From Hyphomicrobiales bacterium (GTDB lineage Bacteria; Pseudomonadota; Alphaproteobacteria; Rhizobiales; Xanthobacteraceae): a DNA stretch of 64,000 nt. The stretch's first letter is position 1. Each line of letters begins with the position of its first letter. The stretch covers positions 62,001 to 126,000 of the forward strand of contig JAFKKG010000027.1 of NCBI GenBank assembly GCA_017305715.1. The letters run 5' to 3'. The position numbers were made by a program, and so were the translations under genes. Below are positions 17,320-26,045 of this stretch, in pieces. The notes beneath the pieces were generated by a model. It worked only from the letters and a program-made list of their open reading frames with translations, had not been told where the DNA came from and searched no databases.

Positions 17320-18774
17320 GTGATAATGCAGTATCCGATGCATTCGGTTTTGAGGGCGAACGTCTTGAGCGCAATAGCTGATGTAGCTGATATCACCGAT
17401 CCCGGGAGCAAGCCGGCCAAACGCGCCGACGCCCAACAGGAGACGCTCAAATTCGCGGAGGCGGCGCTTGCCGACAATAAGCGCCAGGGCCTGCTGCTCG
17501 CGGTTCGCGCCCGCTGGGTCGCGCTGGCGGTGACGGCGGCAACCCTGCCGATCATCAATCCGCAGTGGGAGGTCCTCTATTATGTCCTGATGCTCGGCCT
17601 GTTTGCCCTGATCGGATGGGCCCAGCTCAAGGTCGGCAAGGCCGAGCGGTCATGGCCGGAGCTCATTCTGATATTTTGCGATCTGTTGCTGCTGACGTTC
17701 CTGAGCGTGATCCCCAGTCCCTGGAGCACGGTCGATTGGCCGATTGCGATGCAGTACAGGTTCGACAGTTTCCTCTATTTCTTTGTCTTCCTGTCCACCG
17801 CCACGATGGCCTATTCGTGGCGCACCGTGGTGGCCATGGGGTTCTGGACCTCCGCGCTGTGGGCCATCGGTGTCGGCTGGGTTTACCTGCAGCCGCAAAC
17901 CCATGCCGCGCTGTCGGAGCGGATACGGGCCGCCGTCGGCTCCGACGTCCGCCTGTTCGATATCATCGACCCTGCCTCGATCGGCTTTGGCGCGAGATTC
18001 CAGCAAATCACCGTGTTCATGATCGTTGCCATGACGTTGGCGCTGGCGGCGCGGCGCTCGAATGCGCTGCTGATCAGCCACGCCGGCATCGAGCGCGAAC
18101 GCACCAATCTGGCGCGGTACTTTTCGCCCAATGTGGTCGAGCAGCTATCCAAGAACGACGAGCCGCTGAAGCAGGTGCGAACCCAGAATGTCGCGGTGCT
18201 GTTCGCCGACATCGTCGACTTCACCGCCTATGCTGACCGCCGAACCCCTATGGACGTCATTGCGACGCTGCGCCAATTCCACGAGCGCATGGAACGCGAA
18301 GTGTTCCGGCACGATGGGACGCTCGACAAATATCTCGGCGACGGATTGATGGCGACGTTCGGCACGCCCTTCACCGGCGATTCCGACGCCGGCAACGCGC
18401 TGCGATGCGCGCAGGCCATGATCGGCTCGATCGGCGAGCTCAACCGCGAACGAGAGGGTCGCGGCGAGCCACCGATCCGGCTCAGCATCGGATTGCACTA
18501 CGGTCAGGTCGTGCTCGGCGATATCGGATTGAACCGACTCGAATTCGCCGTGATCGGCTCGGCGGTAAATGCCGCCAGCCGTCTCGAATCCCTCACCCGC
18601 GAATATGGCTGCGCCCTGGTGGCCAGCGACGAACTCGTGCAGCGGGCGCGGGCCGAAGCCGGCAGCTCAAGCGCCGATTTTGCGCAGCTTGTCCAAAAGC
18701 CGCCGCGGACGATCCGGGGCCTCGAGCAGCCGGTCGGAATATGGACGCGGGGCTATGACGCCGAGGCAAACTGA
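17320..18774 (+). CDS. Membrane-bound class III adenylate/guanylate cyclase
   Basis: About 484 aa; the start is uncertain (GTG 17320 or ATG 17326/17338, none with a clear ribosome site). Residues ~60-240 hold five or six hydrophobic segments, then a short linker (E-R-E-R-T-N-L-A-R-Y-F-S-P-N-V-V) leads into the cyclase domain. Metal aspartates lie in L-F-A-D-I-V-D-F-T and L-G-D-G-L-M-A, the substrate lysine in L-D-K-Y-L, and the Asn/Arg pair in I-G-S-A-V-N-A-A-S-R-L. Serine replaces the usual aspartate in I-G-S, again class IIIb-like. The Y-F-S-P linker is a common coupling element in membrane cyclases. Second cyclase within 3 kb but a different architecture from 14290. Confidence 0.85.
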   Translation: MIMQYPMHSVLRANVLSAIADVADITDPGSKPAKRADAQQETLKFAEAALADNKRQGLLLAVRARWVALAVTAATLPIINPQWEVLYYVLMLGLFALIGWAQLKVGKAERSWPELILIFCDLLLLTFLSVIPSPWSTVDWPIAMQYRFDSFLYFFVFLSTATMAYSWRTVVAMGFWTSALWAIGVGWVYLQPQTHAALSERIRAAVGSDVRLFDIIDPASIGFGARFQQITVFMIVAMTLALAARRSNALLISHAGIERERTNLARYFSPNVVEQLSKNDEPLKQVRTQNVAVLFADIVDFTAYADRRTPMDVIATLRQFHERMEREVFRHDGTLDKYLGDGLMATFGTPFTGDSDAGNALRCAQAMIGSIGELNREREGRGEPPIRLSIGLHYGQVVLGDIGLNRLEFAVIGSAVNAASRLESLTREYGCALVASDELVQRARAEAGSSSADFAQLVQKPPRTIRGLEQPVGIWTRGYDAEAN

Positions 18775-18775
18775 A

Positions 18776-19234
18776 TCAATCAGCGGCCCCGGAGACCTTC
18801 CACTGCAACAGCGAATGTGCCGGGTCGGCGTCGTTGTGATGCTCGAAGACGCCGGTCACCGGCGTGCCAATGGCAACCGGCTGATGGACGTCACCCACGA
18901 GGTTGCCGATCACGCGCACGTTTCCCGCATGAGGAAGCTCGACGACGACGACGATATAAGGCCCGTGATTGGTCAGGGCATCATGGGTCGGATGCCAAAC
19001 CCGCGTCCAGCTATAGATGCGCCCCTCGGGCCTGACCGGCTTCCACGCGACATCGAACGAATGACAGGCGTGACAGATCCATTCGGGTCCCCACTGCCAG
19101 GTCGAACACTTCTCGCAGCATTGGATGGATAGTTCGTTCCGGCGCAGCCCCGCCCAATGCGGCGCGCTCAGGCCATCGGGCTCGGCTACGGGAATCGGCA
19201 GGCCTTCGGGCAAATAATGCGGTCGCGCAGTCAT
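18776..19234 (-). CDS. DUF35 OB-fold protein with zinc ribbon, acyl-CoA associated
   Basis: 152 aa starting at ATG 19234, which overlaps the stop of the thiolase-like gene by 4 nt (ATGA). The zinc-ribbon cysteines are in I-Q-C-C-E-K-C and I-C-H-A-C, followed by the OB-fold domain (~65-150) with G-R-I-Y-S-W-T-R-V. DUF35 proteins partner SCPx-type thiolases and aldolases and are required for their activity or acyl-CoA binding, as in steroid side-chain degradation (ChsH2 with Ltp2). The tight coupling here supports a complex with the product of 19231-20415. Confidence 0.87.
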   Translation of the reverse strand: MTARPHYLPEGLPIPVAEPDGLSAPHWAGLRRNELSIQCCEKCSTWQWGPEWICHACHSFDVAWKPVRPEGRIYSWTRVWHPTHDALTNHGPYIVVVVELPHAGNVRVIGNLVGDVHQPVAIGTPVTGVFEHHNDADPAHSLLQWKVSGAAD

Positions 19235-20415
19235 CCGAGTGCAGCCTCCGAACCATAGATCGCTGTGCTTACCGGCGTCACCATCGGGCCGGCGATGACA
19301 AGGGCGACATCGGCGTCCTTGACCTGATTGCAGGACGCTCCGCGCAATTGCCGGACCGCTTCGGTATGCAATTCGAGGCCATGCATGTAGCATTCCGCCA
19401 GATTGCCGCCGCTGGTGTTGAGCGGCAACTTGCCGCTTCCAGCCACCAGGTTCGGCAATGTGAGAACCTCGTTGGCTTCCTCCGCCTCGAACAGGCCGTG
19501 CTCGACGAGACTCATCAGCACGCCACCGGTGAAGTTCTCGTAGCTTTGCACCACGTCGATATCCTTCGGCGCGACCTTCGCCATGGCATAGAGGTGCGGG
19601 GCGACCGTCTTGAAGTGCGAACTGCCAAAATCGGGCGTGTTGCCCGCCGTCGCGGCGGCCCGATACGGACCGCCGGCGGCGGCGCCGAGCAGATAGGCAG
19701 GCTTTTGCCGGAGGTCCCTGGCCCGTTCCGCCGAAACCAGGATCATCGCCGCGGCGCCGTCGTTCTCCTGACAGCAATCGTACAGATGGAAAGGTTCGGA
19801 TATCCATCGTGAATTGTCGTACTTCTCCTCGTCCAGCGGCCGCCCGTACATGACCGCGCGGGGATTTTTCTGGGCATGCTGGTAGGACGCCAGCGCAATC
19901 GCGCGCAGCGCTTCCTGCTTGATTCCGTGATCATGGATGAACCGCATGGCCTTCATCGAGTAGCGTTGCGCCGGCGTCATCGCGCCATACGGAATCGACA
20001 GCGCGCCCTCTCCGGAGATCGTCTTGACCGGGGCGCTCCGCCCAAACCTGGCAAACTGCCCCTGTGCCAGTGAACGGTAGACCACGACGCAATCCGCCAT
20101 GCCGGTGGCAATGGCGGCAGCCGCATTGGCGGCCGCGGCGGCGCCCCCTCCGCCTCCACCGCCCCACTGCATATTCGAGAAACGCAGTTCCTTGCAACCC
20201 AGCGCGGCCGCCAGCCGCGGCGGCTCGTTGCGATCGTTCGAATAGGATGAAAAGCCATCGATTTCGCGCGGATCTATTCCGGCATCCGCGCATGCATTCA
20301 AGATCGCCATCAAGGCCAATTTGAACTCGGAGTCCGGCGACTTGCCGTGCTTGTAATAGGTTGTCTCGCCGATGCCCGCGACCGCCGTCTTGCCGCGCAG
20401 GGTTCGTTCGTCCAT
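19231..20415 (-). CDS. Thiolase-fold acyl-CoA lyase (Ltp2/SCPx-like), probable retro-aldolase
   Basis: 394 aa with the two-domain thiolase fold. The position of the thiolase nucleophilic cysteine instead reads M-Q-W-G-G-G-G-G, and the usual H-P-x-G motif is replaced by N-T-S-G-G-N-L-A-E-C-Y-M-H-G. Both changes are typical of the Ltp2 group, which performs retro-aldol cleavage of branched beta-hydroxyacyl-CoA with a DUF35 partner, rather than true thiolysis (family knowledge). The DUF35 gene follows with a 4-nt overlap. It is divergent from the acyl-CoA dehydrogenase genes across a region with two ACTGT-N2-ACAGT sites. Substrate unknown. Confidence 0.83.
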   Translation of the reverse strand: MDERTLRGKTAVAGIGETTYYKHGKSPDSEFKLALMAILNACADAGIDPREIDGFSSYSNDRNEPPRLAAALGCKELRFSNMQWGGGGGGGAAAAANAAAAIATGMADCVVVYRSLAQGQFARFGRSAPVKTISGEGALSIPYGAMTPAQRYSMKAMRFIHDHGIKQEALRAIALASYQHAQKNPRAVMYGRPLDEEKYDNSRWISEPFHLYDCCQENDGAAAMILVSAERARDLRQKPAYLLGAAAGGPYRAAATAGNTPDFGSSHFKTVAPHLYAMAKVAPKDIDVVQSYENFTGGVLMSLVEHGLFEAEEANEVLTLPNLVAGSGKLPLNTSGGNLAECYMHGLELHTEAVRQLRGASCNQVKDADVALVIAGPMVTPVSTAIYGSEAALG

Positions 20416-20529
20416 CGATCTGCCCTCAAACCTTGGTCACTGCCGCCTTCGCGCGCGGGAGCCGGGATGCCGCCCGCCGCCGACGCGTCGGAGCGGCGCG
20501 TTGACGTCGTAATAAGCATCCCGCCCTTG

Positions 20530-20541
20530 ACTGTCTACAGT
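20530..20541. promoter_or_regulatory. Putative operator, ACTGTCTACAGT
   Basis: Palindromic half-sites ACTGT and ACAGT two bases apart, in the gap between the divergent thiolase-like and acyl-CoA dehydrogenase genes. Two more copies of the same pattern occur at 20580-20591 and 24750-24761, always in a divergent promoter region of this acyl-CoA cluster. The pattern suits a dimeric repressor; the regulator is not in the window. Confidence 0.55.
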
Positions 20542-20577
20542 TTTCAGTGTGGGCACGCGCTTGGGACCCTTGCCATG

Positions 20578-20593
20578 AAACTGTTGACAGTTT
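20578..20593. promoter_or_regulatory. Putative operator, AAACTGTTGACAGTTT
   Basis: A perfect 7-bp inverted repeat with a 2-bp centre, the best-formed of the three sites in this cluster. It lies 49 nt upstream of the GTG start of the acyl-CoA dehydrogenase at 20642 and 37 nt from the site at 20530, so it is well placed to block transcription in that direction. Confidence 0.6.
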
Positions 20594-20641
20594 TTGAAGC
20601 AGCTTCCTAGAGTGGCTGCGTCAGCATGGGGTATCCAAACC

Positions 20642-21757
20642 GTGAATTTTGATTTTTCGGACGAGTTGCATCTGCTGCGCGATCAGGCGCGTCAATTTCT
20701 GCGTGACAATTGTCCGCCGGCGCGTGCACGCAGCGTCATGATGGGGACGCAATCGCACGACGCGACGCTCTGGCAGCAGATCGCGGCGATGGGCTGGACC
20801 GGAACCACCATACCGGAACAGTACGAAGGCTCTGGCCTCGGACATCTCGGGCTTTGCGTGCTCGCCGAAGAGCTCGGATACGCGATTGCGCCCCTGCCCT
20901 TCTCGAGCACGCTCTATCTTGCGGCCGAGGCGCTGTTGCTGGCCGGCACCGAGGAGCAGAAATCGAAATGGCTGCCACGGCTGGCGACCGGGCAGGCCAT
21001 TGGCACCTTCGCGCTGTCCGAAGGGCTGAACCACTGCAGCGCCAGCCAGGTGCGCACCCGGTTCGAAGGCGGCCGGCTGAGCGGCGTCAAGATGCCCGTG
21101 GCGGACGGCTCTTTGGCAGACTTTGCGATCGTGGTGGCGCGCTCGGACTCCGGCCCTGGCCTGTGTCTGGTGGAGTTGAAGGGCGACGGCGTCGGGTCGA
21201 AGCCGGTGGCGACGCTGGATCCGAGCCGTCCGCATGCGCAGCTGACGTTCACCCGGGCGTCCGCGGAACCGGTCGGCCGGCCCGGTGACGGCGAAAAGCT
21301 GCTCGATGCGCTCTATGATCGCGCCGCGGTATTGTTTTCATTCGAACAGCTCGGCGGGGCACAGGCCGCGCTGGATATGGCCAAGGCGTATGCGCTCGAT
21401 CGCTACGCGTTCGGCCGGCCGATCGGATCGTTCCAGGCCATCAAGCACAAGCTGGCGGACGTGTTCGTCGCGGTCGAGCTGGCGCGATCGAACGCCTATT
21501 ATGGCGCATGGGCGTTGTCACGCAACGCGCCCGAGCTGCCGGTGGCCGCCGCCACCGCACGGGCCTGCGCGACTGACGCCTATTGGCTGGCCGCCAAGGA
21601 AAATATCCAGGTGCACGGCGGAATTGGTTTCAGCTGGGAGTCGGACTGCCAGCTCTATTACCGGCGGGCGAAGCTGCTCGGGCTCACCATCGGGAACGCA
21701 TCGCGATGGAAAAATCGCCTGATCGGACATCTCGAGACCGCCCGGCGCGCGTCGTAA
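20642..21757 (+). CDS. Acyl-CoA dehydrogenase, subunit or isozyme A
   Basis: 371 aa from a GTG start at 20642 (GGGG upstream). FAD-dependent alpha,beta-desaturation of an acyl-CoA. The helical N-terminal domain, the central beta domain (F-A-L-S-E-G-L) and the C-terminal domain are complete; the C-terminal Q-V-H-G-G-I-G-F-S-W-E-S-D supplies a glutamate at the expected catalytic position. The next gene, 12 nt downstream, is a second, different acyl-CoA dehydrogenase, the arrangement seen for heterotetrameric enzymes such as ChsE1-ChsE2 in steroid degraders (inference). Confidence 0.88.
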   Translation: MNFDFSDELHLLRDQARQFLRDNCPPARARSVMMGTQSHDATLWQQIAAMGWTGTTIPEQYEGSGLGHLGLCVLAEELGYAIAPLPFSSTLYLAAEALLLAGTEEQKSKWLPRLATGQAIGTFALSEGLNHCSASQVRTRFEGGRLSGVKMPVADGSLADFAIVVARSDSGPGLCLVELKGDGVGSKPVATLDPSRPHAQLTFTRASAEPVGRPGDGEKLLDALYDRAAVLFSFEQLGGAQAALDMAKAYALDRYAFGRPIGSFQAIKHKLADVFVAVELARSNAYYGAWALSRNAPELPVAAATARACATDAYWLAAKENIQVHGGIGFSWESDCQLYYRRAKLLGLTIGNASRWKNRLIGHLETARRAS

Positions 21758-21769
21758 CAGGAGCCCCAG

Positions 21770-23005
21770 ATGGATTTTGAAGACACCAGGGAAGAAGCCG
21801 AGTATCGCGCCCGCGCCCGCGCATTCCTGCAGGCCAACGCAACACGCAAGCCGGTCGATTCAAGCCGGGGCTACCGCGACGGAAACGAAAGCCATGACGC
21901 GCTGGCCAAGGCCAGAATCTGGCAGCAGAAGAAGGCTGCAGCCGGCTTCGCCGCCATCACCTGGCCGAAGCAGTGGGGCGGACCTGGCGGCAGCGCGATC
22001 CAGCAGGTCATCTACAACCAGGAAGAGGCCGAGTTCGACGTTCCCGTCGGCTTCTTCGAACTGGGTATCGGCTGGGCGATGCCGAGCCTGTTCGCATGGG
22101 GGACACCAGCGCTGGTTCTGCCGCATGCCGAGAGAACCCGCACCGGAGCCGAGATCTGGTGCCAGTTGTTTTCGGAACCGGCCGGTGGCACCGACCTTGC
22201 CGCCCTGCGCACGCGGGCCGAACGGCAGGGCGACGAATGGGTCATCAACGGCCAGAAGATCTGGACGACCGGCGCGCAATTCTCCGACTACGGATTGCTG
22301 ATCACCCGAAGCGACTTCACGGTACCCAAGCACAAGGGACTGACCGCGTTCTACGTCGACATGAAGTCGCCGGGCGTCGAGGTGCGTCCGATCCGCCAGA
22401 TGTCGGGGGAGGCCCATTTCAACGAGGTGTTCTTCAACGACGTGCGGATTCCCGACAGCCAGAGGCTTGGCGCTCCCGGCGACGGGTTCAAGGTGGTCCT
22501 CACCACGCTCAACAATGAGCGGTTCAATATTTCCGAGCTTTTCCCCCCGGACTTCGACCAGCTCTTTGAACTCGTGAAGAATCTCGAATACCCGGAAGGG
22601 CCCGCGATCCAGAACGCGGCGATCCGCGAACGGCTGGCTGATTTCTATATCAAGTCGCAAGGTGTCAAATGCGCCAACTTCCGCGCCATGACCGCCTTGT
22701 CGCGCGGTGAAACGCCGGGGCCGGAAATTTCCATCGGCAAGCTGGTCAGTTCCGCGCGGCTTCAGGATCTGTCCGCTTTCGGCGCCGACCTCATGGACGC
22801 GGCCGGGATCATGACCGACCCCGACCAGATGCCGATGAAAGCGCTGTTCCAGCGCGGATATTTGTACTCACCGGGCCTGCGGGTCGGTGGCGGTACCGAC
22901 GAGATTATCCGCAACGTGATCGCCGAACGCGTGCTCGGCCTGCCTGCCGAGGTACGCGTCGACAAGGATCTTCCGTTCAACCGTCTTCCGACCGGCAAGC
23001 GCTGA
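21770..23005 (+). CDS. Acyl-CoA dehydrogenase, subunit or isozyme B
   Basis: 411 aa, starts 12 nt after the preceding dehydrogenase with GGAG upstream. The FAD-binding blocks are clear (C-Q-L-F-S-E-P-A-G-G-T-D; Q-K-I-W-T-T-G-A), and the C-terminus has the V-G-G-G-T-D-E-I-I-R-N-V-I-A-E-R-V-L-G motif of the FadE-type group. The region expected to hold a catalytic glutamate reads A-A-G-I-M-T-D-P-D, without one, so the active site may rely on the partner subunit or on a residue elsewhere. This fits an alpha2beta2 enzyme with the product of 20642. Substrate unknown. Confidence 0.88.
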   Translation: MDFEDTREEAEYRARARAFLQANATRKPVDSSRGYRDGNESHDALAKARIWQQKKAAAGFAAITWPKQWGGPGGSAIQQVIYNQEEAEFDVPVGFFELGIGWAMPSLFAWGTPALVLPHAERTRTGAEIWCQLFSEPAGGTDLAALRTRAERQGDEWVINGQKIWTTGAQFSDYGLLITRSDFTVPKHKGLTAFYVDMKSPGVEVRPIRQMSGEAHFNEVFFNDVRIPDSQRLGAPGDGFKVVLTTLNNERFNISELFPPDFDQLFELVKNLEYPEGPAIQNAAIRERLADFYIKSQGVKCANFRAMTALSRGETPGPEISIGKLVSSARLQDLSAFGADLMDAAGIMTDPDQMPMKALFQRGYLYSPGLRVGGGTDEIIRNVIAERVLGLPAEVRVDKDLPFNRLPTGKR

Positions 23006-23095
23006 GCGTGGCATGGACGGCGATGCCGCGCTCCAACGGCCGGCATCGCTCCAGCACGGATCCGGCGGTGAAAGCGACGGCGGGCCGGAACCGCT

Positions 23096-24124
23096 TCATT
23101 CCGACTTGATGCCCGCCTTGGCCACAATGTCCGCCAACTCGGCGGTTTCCTTCTTGATTTTGGCGCTGAATCCGGCCGGAGAGAGCGTCAGCACGGTGCC
23201 GTGGGAGGCGAGCCTCGCCTGCACCGCGGGATCGTTTGCCGCATTCACGATCTCCCTGTGTAGAATCTCGACGACCGAGGCCGGTGTCGCCTTGGGGACG
23301 AACACACCGCTCCAGAACGCAACGTCAAAGCCCGGATATCCCTGCTCGGCGACCGTCGGAACGTCCGGCAGCGCCGGCGTGCGTTCCGGCGACGAGACGG
23401 CGAGCGCACGCAGCTTGCCCGACTGAACCAGCGGCACCACACCCAGCGTATCGAACGTCGCCACCACTTCCTTGCCCAGCGTCGCAACCTGTGCGGCCGC
23501 CGCGCCGCGATACGGAATATGCAGCATCTGAACGCCCGCGCGATTGCTGAGCAGTTCCATGGCGATCTGCGTGATGTTGCCATTGCCGGCCGAGCCGTAG
23601 GGCAGCTCGCCCGGCTTCGACTTCGCCAGCGCGATCAGATCCGGAAGGCTCTTCACATTCGCCATCAAGGGGTGTTCGGGATTGATGACGAGGACGAGCG
23701 GCCCCGAAATGACGGTCGTTACCGCCGCAAAATCCCGCTCCGGATTATAGCTGATGTTCTTGAACAGCGTCGGGTTGAGCGTGATCGTGGTGCTGTTGCT
23801 CATGAAGATGGTGTAGCCGTCGGGCGGCGCCGTCGCGACGGCATCGGCGGCCAGCATGCCGTTGGCACCGGAGCGGTTCTCGACGACGAAGGGTTTGCCG
23901 AGCTTGCTCGCCAGCCGCTCGCCGACAATCCGGGCAACGACGTCGATCACCCCGCCCGGGGCAAACCCGACCACCATCTTCACGGGCCGCGACGGGTAGA
24001 CCTCGGCGCGCACCCCGCAGGGGGCCAATACCAATCCAAACGCGGTCAATGCAGCCGCGATGATCCGTACCGAACTGATCTCGCGCCCCCTGTTGGCTCG
24101 TCGCCCGCACCAGATGTCCCGCAT
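23096..24124 (-). CDS. Bug/TctC-family periplasmic solute-binding protein
   Basis: 342 aa from ATG 24124 with the strong site GGGGGAGGGG. A signal peptide occupies residues ~15-40 (S-S-V-R-I-I-A-A-A-L-T-A-F-G-L-V), then the mature protein opens Y-P-S-R-P-V-K-M-V-V-G-F-A-P-G-G, the hallmark of the Bug family. These proteins bind carboxylates and normally serve tripartite tricarboxylate transporters; no TctA/TctB genes are present, which is usual for Bug genes in this group. It is downstream of the MaoC gene (24189-24659) on the same strand, so it probably captures the carboxylate that feeds the acyl-CoA pathway. Confidence 0.87.
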   Translation of the reverse strand: MRDIWCGRRANRGREISSVRIIAAALTAFGLVLAPCGVRAEVYPSRPVKMVVGFAPGGVIDVVARIVGERLASKLGKPFVVENRSGANGMLAADAVATAPPDGYTIFMSNSTTITLNPTLFKNISYNPERDFAAVTTVISGPLVLVINPEHPLMANVKSLPDLIALAKSKPGELPYGSAGNGNITQIAMELLSNRAGVQMLHIPYRGAAAAQVATLGKEVVATFDTLGVVPLVQSGKLRALAVSSPERTPALPDVPTVAEQGYPGFDVAFWSGVFVPKATPASVVEILHREIVNAANDPAVQARLASHGTVLTLSPAGFSAKIKKETAELADIVAKAGIKSE

Positions 24125-24188
24125 CACCCCTCCCCCAAAACTCTTTGTTGTTTTTATCTGTTGGTCCCGCGTCCTGCCGAACCGTCCG

Positions 24189-24659
24189 TCAGGACGGGCG
24201 CCGCTTGTACATGATGGTGATTTCCATCTCCTGCACCTCCTGCCCGTGCTGGTTGATGAATGTACGGGCGAAGGTGATGACCCCGCGATCTGCATGACGC
24301 GTCTCTCGCTTGGCGATGACCTTCGATCGCACGAAGATGGTGTCGCCGTGCTTGACGGGGATCTTCATCCGCCACTTGTCCATGCCGAGAAATGCGATCA
24401 GCGTTCCGTCATTAATCCCCGACGCGTAGTTCAGCCCCGCCGCCACCGCGAATACCAGCGTGCCGTGCGCAATCGGCTCGCCGAACGCGGTGGTCTTGCA
24501 GTACTCGTGATTGGTGTGCACCTCGTTGAAATCCCCCGAGAGGCAGGCAAAATTCACGATGTCGGTGGCCGTGATGGTGCGGCGGCCCGTTTGCAGCGCC
24601 TGGCCAATCTCAAAATCTTCAAAATACATCCCGCGCGGGGCCGGCGAGTTCGACGTCAT
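24189..24659 (-). CDS. MaoC-like hot-dog enoyl-CoA hydratase
   Basis: 156 aa single hot-dog domain. The hydratase motif is S-G-D-F-N-E-V-H-T-N followed by I-A-H-G-T-L-V-F; D and H are the catalytic pair that adds water to a trans-2-enoyl-CoA. It would act between the dehydrogenases at 20642/21770 and the thiolase-fold lyase at 19231. Its promoter side carries the ACTGT-N2-ACAGT site at 24750. Confidence 0.87.
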   Translation of the reverse strand: MTSNSPAPRGMYFEDFEIGQALQTGRRTITATDIVNFACLSGDFNEVHTNHEYCKTTAFGEPIAHGTLVFAVAAGLNYASGINDGTLIAFLGMDKWRMKIPVKHGDTIFVRSKVIAKRETRHADRGVITFARTFINQHGQEVQEMEITIMYKRRPS

Positions 24660-24749
24660 GGTGAGTTTCCTTCAAGGCTCGGGCCCGGCAAGCGCGCGCC
24701 GATCGCCCGCGCGGGGCGTGCGGTTTTGAGTTTCGTCGCTGCTATGAAA

Positions 24750-24761
24750 ACTGTCAACAGT
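24750..24761. promoter_or_regulatory. Putative operator, ACTGTCAACAGT
   Basis: Third copy of the ACTGT-N2-ACAGT palindrome, preceded by GAAA as in the 20578 copy. It lies between the divergent MaoC gene (start 24659) and the PLP-enzyme gene (start near 24882), which ties both to the same putative regulator as the thiolase and dehydrogenase genes. Confidence 0.55.
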
Positions 24762-24881
24762 CTTCTGTTCGATAGATGGAGCTGCCATGGGCGGATGCAC
24801 GGCTCGGTGGCTTTGCCGGTAGCCGGGGACGGTTCGCGGTTGACCACTCACCGCGTCCGGGCGCATAGGCCACAGCGGAGA

Positions 24882-26045
24882 ATGAACTCGCGCATGGTTG
24901 CCCCGATGCCCCAACGAAATCCCGATGCCTCCTTCTACATCGAGCCGCACAGCGGCGAGCGCTATCCGCTGGATCTGCCGCGCTGGTGTTCCGACGGACA
25001 AAAGCCACTGCTGATCAACCCGCAGCCCGGCATCATCAGAGACGAGATCGATCGCGGCACGCGGTCACTATGGCGGTATCGGGCCTCGCTGCCGGTCGAC
25101 ATTGCAAAACCGGTTTCGCTCGGTGAAGGCTGCACCCCGCTGGTGCAAAGGGAATGGGACGATTTCCGGCCGTTCTTCAAGCTGGAATGGTTCAACCCGA
25201 CCTGCAGTTTCAAGGACCGCGGCACCACGGTCATGCTGTCCTTCGTGCGGCAGCTCGGAATCGATGCGGTGCTGGAAGACTCCTCTGGCAATGGTGGCGC
25301 GTCGGTGGCGGCCTATGGCGCGGCGGGCGGCATGGGCGTGAAGATATTGGCGCCGGCCTATACGTCTCCCGCAAAAGTCGCGCAGGTTCGCGCCTATGGC
25401 GCCGAGGTGCAACTCGTCGAAGGGCCGCGCGAGGAATCCGAGCGCGAGGCGATCCGCCAATCCAGCCAGATCTTCTATTCGAGCCACAACTGGCAGCCAT
25501 TCTTCCTGCAGGGCACCAAGTCGATGGCGTATGAACTCTGGGAGGATTTCAACTTCACGGCGCCCGACAACATCGTCATTCCGGTCGGCGCGGGCAGCAA
25601 TTTGCTCGGCTGCCACATCGGCTTCTCCGAGTTGCTCGCCGCCGGCCAGATCCGCAAACTGCCAAAACTGTTTGCCGCGCAGCCCCTCAACTGCTCACCG
25701 CTGGATGCGAGTTTCCAGGCCGGCGTCGATACGCCGGTCGCGCGCGCCGTGCACAAGACGATCGCGGAGGGCACCGCCATCGCCCATCCGCTGCGGCTGA
25801 AGGAGATGATCCACGCCTTGAAGGACAGCGGCGGGGAATCGGTCGCAGTCACAGAAGACGAGATCGTGGCCGCCCTGAAACGGCTCGCACGGCTCGGCCT
25901 GTTCGTGGAGCCGACCTCGGCCAGTGTCGCGGCTGCGTTCGCCAGGCTTACCGCGCGCGGCGTCATTGGGAGCCGCGAAAACACGGTGCTGTTGATTTCG
26001 GGCACCGGCATCAAGACCGCATCGACAATTGCCGAGCTGTTTTGA
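24882..26045 (+). CDS. Threonine-synthase-like PLP-dependent enzyme
   Basis: 387 aa of the fold-type II PLP family. The cofactor lysine is in T-C-S-F-K-D-R-G-T-T, the phosphate/substrate loop in S-S-G-N-G-G-A-S-V-A-A, and the glycine-rich PLP-phosphate loop in P-V-G-A-G-S-N-L-L-G. It resembles short threonine synthases and diaminopropionate ammonia-lyase relatives. Start is uncertain among ATG 24882, 24894 and 24906. The promoter region shares an operator-like site with the acyl-CoA genes, so it may remove or transfer an amino group from a pathway compound rather than make threonine (inference). Confidence 0.82.
   Translation: MNSRMVAPMPQRNPDASFYIEPHSGERYPLDLPRWCSDGQKPLLINPQPGIIRDEIDRGTRSLWRYRASLPVDIAKPVSLGEGCTPLVQREWDDFRPFFKLEWFNPTCSFKDRGTTVMLSFVRQLGIDAVLEDSSGNGGASVAAYGAAGGMGVKILAPAYTSPAKVAQVRAYGAEVQLVEGPREESEREAIRQSSQIFYSSHNWQPFFLQGTKSMAYELWEDFNFTAPDNIVIPVGAGSNLLGCHIGFSELLAAGQIRKLPKLFAAQPLNCSPLDASFQAGVDTPVARAVHKTIAEGTAIAHPLRLKEMIHALKDSGGESVAVTEDEIVAALKRLARLGLFVEPTSASVAAAFARLTARGVIGSRENTVLLISGTGIKTASTIAELF

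Follow-up and report, generated by a model that had tools for sequence, protein, structure and literature searches.

The enzyme class of the DUF35-bound retro-aldolases, two-subunit acyl-CoA dehydrogenases and the GntR operator type are already known. Here we compare them with a block of six genes in a 64,000-nucleotide stretch of a Hyphomicrobiales bacterium genome (GCA_017305715.1, contig JAFKKG010000027.1, positions 62,001 to 126,000; hereafter the window). The block encodes an Ltp2-like thiolase-fold protein, a DUF35 partner, two acyl-CoA dehydrogenases (ACAD1 and ACAD2), a MaoC-type hydratase and a TctC carboxylate-binding protein, and it probably belongs to the regulon of a GntR/FCD protein encoded elsewhere in the genome (GntR-B). 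Like Ltp2-ChsH2(DUF35) of Thermomonospora curvata (6ok1; TcLtp2), it combines a thiolase fold closest to Ltp2, a DUF35 partner gene and two catalytic tyrosines; in contrast, the window protein has YENF for YDHF, scores below the PRK07855 cut-off and stands in a non-steroid gene context, and its DUF35 partner is a separate small protein that is not fused to a MaoC domain. The two-subunit dehydrogenases 4x28 and Tcur3481-Tcur3483 (6wy8, 6wy9) are matched by ACAD1 in one chain and by ACAD2 in the other, but the scores are moderate (107-139 bits), the best match of ACAD1 is the unrelated 1ukw_A, and an ACAD1-ACAD2 heteromer is a prediction. We take 4x28 and 6wy8 to be steroid heteromeric dehydrogenases. 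PDB entry 7xp0 is presumably PmiR of Pseudomonas aeruginosa, which Cui is said to have described in 2022 as a 2-methylisocitrate-sensing GntR protein of that species.

Two further systems were compared. In Sal-Shy(DUF35), the aldolase that acts on bile acids in Comamonas testosteroni (9myr; PMC12329534), Sal carries a YDCY motif with Tyr302/Cys304 and has Gln in place of the second tyrosine, whereas the window protein has YENF and the second Tyr. The IpfD-IpfE ibuprofen system (pIBU218; PMC9195938) likewise has a thiolase-like protein beside an OB-fold partner, with the genes assigned from gene order; there the motif is YDAF and a ring dioxygenase adjoins the Ipf genes, whereas none is present in the block or among the seven genes examined here. 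IpfD/IpfE was rejected as the closest relative at 29% identity over 384 residues. A lipid-transfer protein on pIBU218 has a PRK07855 score of 583 and a YDHF motif.

The operator and its regulator

The exact palindrome ACTGTNNACAGT is present in three copies in the window (Table 1). Operators 1 and 2 share the 226-bp gap between the Ltp2-like and ACAD1 genes, with their centres 50 bp apart, and a promoter scan of this divergent gap found one promoter, with its -35 hexamer inside operator 2, compared with a mean of 0.1 in shuffled sequence. An earlier reading made from the sequence alone (the sequence-only reading) had placed three palindromes in both divergent promoter regions; all three copies are exact, the second having been given in its extended form. 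The genome scan that it proposed was carried out on the source genome (7.45 Mb, 51 contigs) with the same pattern reversed as the chance control. Six exact sites were found, compared with two for the control: three in the two promoter regions of the block, in agreement with a shared operator, and three on contigs C23 (C23:91597) and C40 (C40:303161 and C40:311733). The background rate was hand-tallied as 57 exact sites in 187 genomes of the same genus without GntR-B (0.30 per genome), at which six exact sites in one genome have a Poisson P of approximately 9e-7. An exact site is held by 53 of the 195 genomes of the genus sample. Loose matches were not enriched, as the window contains six with at most two mismatches, compared with a shuffled mean of 7.3.

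Both C40 sites flank the gntR-B gene, whose product exceeds the Pfam cut-offs of PF00392 and PF07729 and is the only regulator readable in its 20-kb C40 stretch. GntR-B occurs in eight of the 195 genus genomes, and exact sites lie near it in all eight. All 16 exact sites of the seven other GntR-B genomes are within 9 kb of the gene (in the window genome, two of six), and 15 of these 16 fall at three fixed places, namely the gap that separates the HIBADH-like gene from the epimerase gene (or upstream of the latter), upstream of gntR-B, and the PrpB/LivK gap; the exception is the second site of genome G279. Four of the eight genomes have an exact site 175-186 bp upstream of gntR-B. The window genome and two relatives carry a decayed copy with two mismatches at the end of the gene upstream of gntR-B, and G279 has nothing within two mismatches upstream of gntR-B. 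The family sample outside the genus (198 genomes) contributed three further relatives of GntR-B, in G054 (75% identity), G075 (60%) and G118 (52%). G054 and G075 each have two exact sites in the cluster, one of them 63 bp upstream of the G075 gntR gene, and the recognition-helix segment GVSRGPLREAIRRLEGR is identical in these two proteins and GntR-B. All 10 genomes in which the gene was found at an identity of at least 60% have an exact operator beside it. The flanking positions also differ: A or T occupies 40 of 44 positions at regulon sites and 15 of 52 at background sites (26 of the 57, one per genome; Fisher, 4e-10). Sites with GT-N2-AC spacing are an operator type described for FadR-subfamily GntR proteins (PMC4494728), and the palindrome fits a GT-N2 or N3-AC core lying near own and target genes.

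These results suggest that the site goes with GntR-B and not with the enzyme. As the sequence-only reading had anticipated, the candidate regulator is encoded elsewhere and, in relatives, has the same site upstream of its own gene; the evidence points to GntR/FCD, not to the TetR type that it had named. That reading would also have been challenged by relatives carrying the genes without the sites. Such relatives exist for the aldolase-DUF35 pair alone, since 80 related loci have no exact site, but this fits a site that tracks the regulator and not the enzyme, and the regulon is therefore not refuted. A row of the GntR-B orthologue in another genome (L105; G138:C1:1622389-1623189) contains one in-frame TAG, perhaps the natural end of a shorter protein.

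The core cluster on contig C40

The genes around GntR-B encode MmgE/PrpD, an acyl-CoA dehydrogenase, MaoC, TctC, a HIBADH-family dehydrogenase, an epimerase, a metallo-beta-lactamase-fold hydrolase, PrpF, an OYE-type flavoenzyme, GntR-B itself, PrpB, an aldehyde dehydrogenase and a Liv-type ABC importer. The names Liv, MaoC and TctC were assigned by reading the sequences, MaoC and TctC also by similarity to the window proteins, rather than by family searches. The MaoC-TctC pair has the same gene order in the block and in this cluster (identities in Table 1). The nearest solved relative of GntR-B is 7xp0 (221 bits, ungapped over 210 residues); the likeness to PmiR is a relation of sequence, accompanied by nearby PrpB-, PrpF- and MmgE/PrpD-like genes. 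PrpB exceeds the curated cut-off of TIGR02317 (418.9 compared with 354.4). In contrast to the PmiR system, no 2-methylcitrate synthase (TIGR01800) over the cut-off was found in the window genome (best 329.4, cut-off 421.3), and one of the 10 genomes searched had one; the core cluster is therefore not a standard methylcitrate cycle. It probably acts on a different acid that is methyl-branched or unsaturated. A one-mismatch operator, ATTGTTGACAGT, lies at C40:287210-287221, about 76 bp upstream of a second PrpF gene adjoining an MmgE/PrpD gene; it is possibly a weak regulon member and is given as a lead only.

Insertion of the block

Relative to genome G280, homology ends at about 18767 and restarts at about 24824, with 3 bp between these points in G280; approximately 6.06 kb and all three operators are therefore extra in the window genome, the ends of the block being those of the blastn alignments. 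In G209 this place is occupied by about 0.5 kb of unrelated sequence. G280 and G209 have the most similar genes for the pyridoxal-phosphate (PLP) enzyme (both 90%) and keep the order cyclase-PLP-radA-cvpA-purF without the block; G296, whose PLP gene is 71% identical, has it in another neighbourhood, also without the block. GC content does not differ, being 0.634 inside the block and 0.632 and 0.641 outside. The comparison indicates that the block is a strain-specific gain of six genes by insertion; the alternative, that the relatives lost it, is less likely. At the corresponding place, G209 and G280 also lack the C23 TctC gene with its site.

The PLP gene is present in 131 of the 195 genus genomes (E <= 1e-90). 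We therefore rejected the PLP enzyme as a member of the module, since it is widespread and stands in G280 and G209 between cyclase and radA without the block. The gene list of the seven-gene block in the sequence-only reading was correct, but the PLP gene lies outside, leaving six genes, and the amino-bearing substrate that it had suggested loses its support. Chance expression of the PLP gene from the inserted edge is possible.

Table 1. Positions of the operators, promoter, genes and insertion in the window.
Feature	Position	Strand	Remarks
Inserted block, about 6.06 kb	18768..24823	none	Six genes and three operators, between adenylate cyclase and PLP genes; absent in G280 and G209
DUF35 / ChsH2-type OB-fold and zinc-ribbon partner	18776..19234	-	PF01796 and PF12172 exceed their cut-offs; start codon assigned by eye
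Ltp2-like thiolase-fold retro-aldolase, YENF subfamily (predicted)	19231..20415	-	Tyr292/Tyr343 align with TcLtp2 Tyr294/Tyr344
Operator 1, ACTGTCTACAGT	20530..20541	none	114 bp upstream of Ltp2-like ATG, 100 bp upstream of ACAD1 GTG
Operator 2, ACTGTTGACAGT	20580..20591	none	Extended form AAACTGTTGACAGTTT (20578-20593); 50 bp upstream of ACAD1 GTG; TTGACA -35 hexamer inside
Sigma-70-like promoter, TTGACA-18-TAGAGT	20584..20613	+	10/12; -35 hexamer within operator 2
ACAD1, acyl-CoA dehydrogenase	20642..21757	+	Solved matches: 1ukw_A best, 6wy8_A second, 4x28_D at rank 13
ACAD2, acyl-CoA dehydrogenase	21770..23005	+	Among solved structures, 4x28_A and 6wy8_B match best
TctC (Bug-type) periplasmic carboxylate-binding protein	23096..24118	-	Start codon uncertain; 69% identical to core-cluster TctC
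MaoC-type enoyl-CoA hydratase	24189..24659	-	84% identical to core-cluster MaoC
Operator 3, ACTGTCAACAGT	24750..24761	none	90 bp upstream of MaoC gene, within insertion
PLP enzyme, threonine-synthase-like	24882..26045	+	Flanking chromosomal gene adjoining radA, outside block

Distribution of the aldolase and dehydrogenases

The ATG of the DUF35 gene overlaps the stop codon of the Ltp2-like gene, and a DUF35 gene adjoins the Ltp2 relative in 79 of the 80 related loci, the remaining one being at a contig end. These loci were the top 80 among the 158 relatives that a single scan of GTDB species genomes confirmed. Apart from DUF35, their neighbours are mixed, as read with open reading frame calling that is crude for high-GC DNA, and no substrate can therefore be read from them. 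The window-type aldolase itself was found in one of the 195 genus genomes (this one); hits in 34 others, together with a second copy in this genome, are 66-70% identical to it. Six of the 198 genomes of the family sample have an aldolase hit at E <= 1e-80. G075 and G045 carry orthologues (87% and 84%), each beside a DUF35 gene and with no exact site within about 10 kb.

The second window-type aldolase of this genome (68%; L020, C40:259000-278900) has no exact operator, and its neighbours are a LigXa-type Rieske oxygenase, a reductase, a further lipid-transfer/DUF35 pair and an MFE-2-type hydratase. In G075, two acyl-CoA dehydrogenases are fused in one 783-residue frame (L016, 2133-4484), which is 5-7 kb away from the nearest Ltp2-like relative. 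About 88 kb away on this contig (L219) lies the 60% GntR-B with its two exact operators. Loci L076 and L066/L069/L096, from metagenome-assembled genomes, are labelled Klebsiella pneumoniae and Asaia bogorensis, and these labels may be wrong.

Proposed function and alternative explanations

We consider it likely that the six-gene insertion belongs to the GntR-B regulon and carries a branched acyl-CoA retro-aldol route, which is the best explanation of the locus as a whole. In the proposed mechanism, in which we infer repression rather than activation, GntR-B dimers would bind AAACTGTnnACAGTTT. Operator 2 would cover the -35 hexamer of the dehydrogenase promoter, operators 1 and 2 would jointly shut the divergent Ltp2-DUF35 and ACAD1-ACAD2 promoters, and operator 3 would shut MaoC-TctC. 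A carboxylic-acid effector, perhaps like 2-methylisocitrate, might relieve repression of the block and the core cluster together; the lack of a 2-methylcitrate synthase over the cut-off makes it less likely that propionyl-CoA released by the aldolase would give rise to 2-methylisocitrate as the inducer. TctC would capture the extracellular acid, an ACAD1-ACAD2 heteromer would dehydrogenate a beta-branched acyl-CoA, and hydration by MaoC would give a tertiary beta-hydroxyacyl-CoA, which is not cleavable by thiolysis. The Ltp2-like/DUF35 pair may then split it by a retro-aldol reaction into a ketone or aldehyde and a short acyl-CoA. By analogy, the cassette probably shortens a branched acid as in steroid side-chain trimming, with a different acid. 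Sequence and fold matches bear out the resemblance to an Ltp2/DUF35 system with a two-subunit dehydrogenase that the sequence-only reading had noticed.

Several observations weigh against this explanation. The block was found in one genome only, and none of its six genes encodes a CoA ligase or transferase. The promoter scan gave no recognisable promoter at operator 3, and G118, the most distant relative with GntR-B, has one-mismatch sites only. Genome-wide, 24 places have one mismatch, compared with 56 for the reversed control; the signal is therefore confined to exact copies, and one-mismatch sites were rejected as regulon members. Among solved structures, ACAD1 matches the ordinary dehydrogenase 1ukw_A (136 bits) better than 6wy8_A (131 bits) and 4x28_D (107 bits). 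Unlike the hydratase of ChsH1-ChsH2 or Shy, MaoC is encoded apart from DUF35, and its best matches are PaaZ and RipB domains. Finally, the oxyanion-hole His of TcLtp2 (YDHF) is replaced by Asn in the window protein (YENF), and its activity could differ for this reason.

The alternatives below are not mutually exclusive. The Ltp2-like protein might be a thiolase or acyltransferase, as in BbsAB or PhlC, and the block an ordinary beta-oxidation spiral. Points in its favour are the thiolase fold, weak BbsA/BbsB matches and a fold search that also matched BbsB and PhlC. However, 6ok1 is the best match both by sequence and by fold, the first two fold matches are both DUF35-bound aldolases, and both TcLtp2 tyrosines (Tyr294, Tyr344) are present in 84 of 84 sequences, which makes a thiolase or acyltransferase unlikely. 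The nucleophile-loop stretch (residues 84-98) of the window protein contains no Cys, a weak point since Cys is found there in 23 of the 84 sequences and in the aldolase TcLtp2.

The block might instead be a true Ltp2/Chs system that degrades the side chains of steroids. The solved relatives of Ltp2, ACAD1 and ACAD2 include enzymes that presumably act on steroids, and ACAD1 (6wy8_A, 4x28_D) and ACAD2 (4x28_A, 6wy8_B) match opposite chains of the solved heteromers at the level of sequence. Nevertheless, judged by family scores, active-site motif and predicted co-regulation, a steroid role is very unlikely. The Ltp2-like protein scores 360.7 bits against a PRK07855 cut-off of 469 and ACAD1 167.2 bits against an IpdE2 cut-off of 450 (both NCBIfam), the motif is YENF and not YDHF, and the block is predicted to be co-regulated with PrpB/PrpF/MmgE-like acid enzymes.

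As for the regulator, a second FCD protein (C23:89808-90521) could be the cognate one, as this GntR/FCD protein is encoded about 1.1 kb from the exact C23 site. It is present in 65 of the 195 genomes, but a hand comparison of the regulator and site tables showed an exact site within 10 kb in none of the 64 others; the 18 other genomes with both a C23-type regulator and an exact site were all covered with full site counts. We therefore rejected it as the owner of the operator, and with the C23 site and TctC gene lacking at the matching place in G209 and G280 it is a highly improbable candidate. It is hardly credible that a TetR-type repressor encoded elsewhere controls all seven genes as a module for a branched acid with an amino group. 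The shape of the palindrome alone would also fit a TetR operator, and there is no regulator among the seven genes, but the operator accompanies a GntR/FCD gene in every genome found with that gene at an identity of at least 60%, several times at its own promoter, and the PLP gene is common and occurs without the block.

Significance

We also make a broader proposal, tentatively and with slightly less than even confidence: the YENF/DUF35 proteins may be uncharacterised, widespread, non-steroid beta-branched acyl-CoA retro-aldolases, and an operator-bearing cassette may have joined an existing GntR/FCD acid regulon in a single step, as may the C23 TctC gene. In the literature searched, which covered few subscription papers, we found neither the YENF subfamily nor the operator-bearing insertion, nor this combination of genes. 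Searches for the operator in several spellings turned up unrelated papers only, and one spelling combined with GntR gave no match.

One regulator gene, one operator and a set of targets make a prediction that is directly testable with one purified protein. The core sites are kept with the regulator both within the genus and beyond it, while each of the four non-core sites of this genome is in a stretch absent from both relatives examined, a pattern that would represent growth of a regulon by insertion. The aldolase would belong to a common, apparently undescribed branch of DUF35-bound retro-aldolases, with an active-site motif unlike that of the steroid enzymes, which are themselves studied as biocatalysts.

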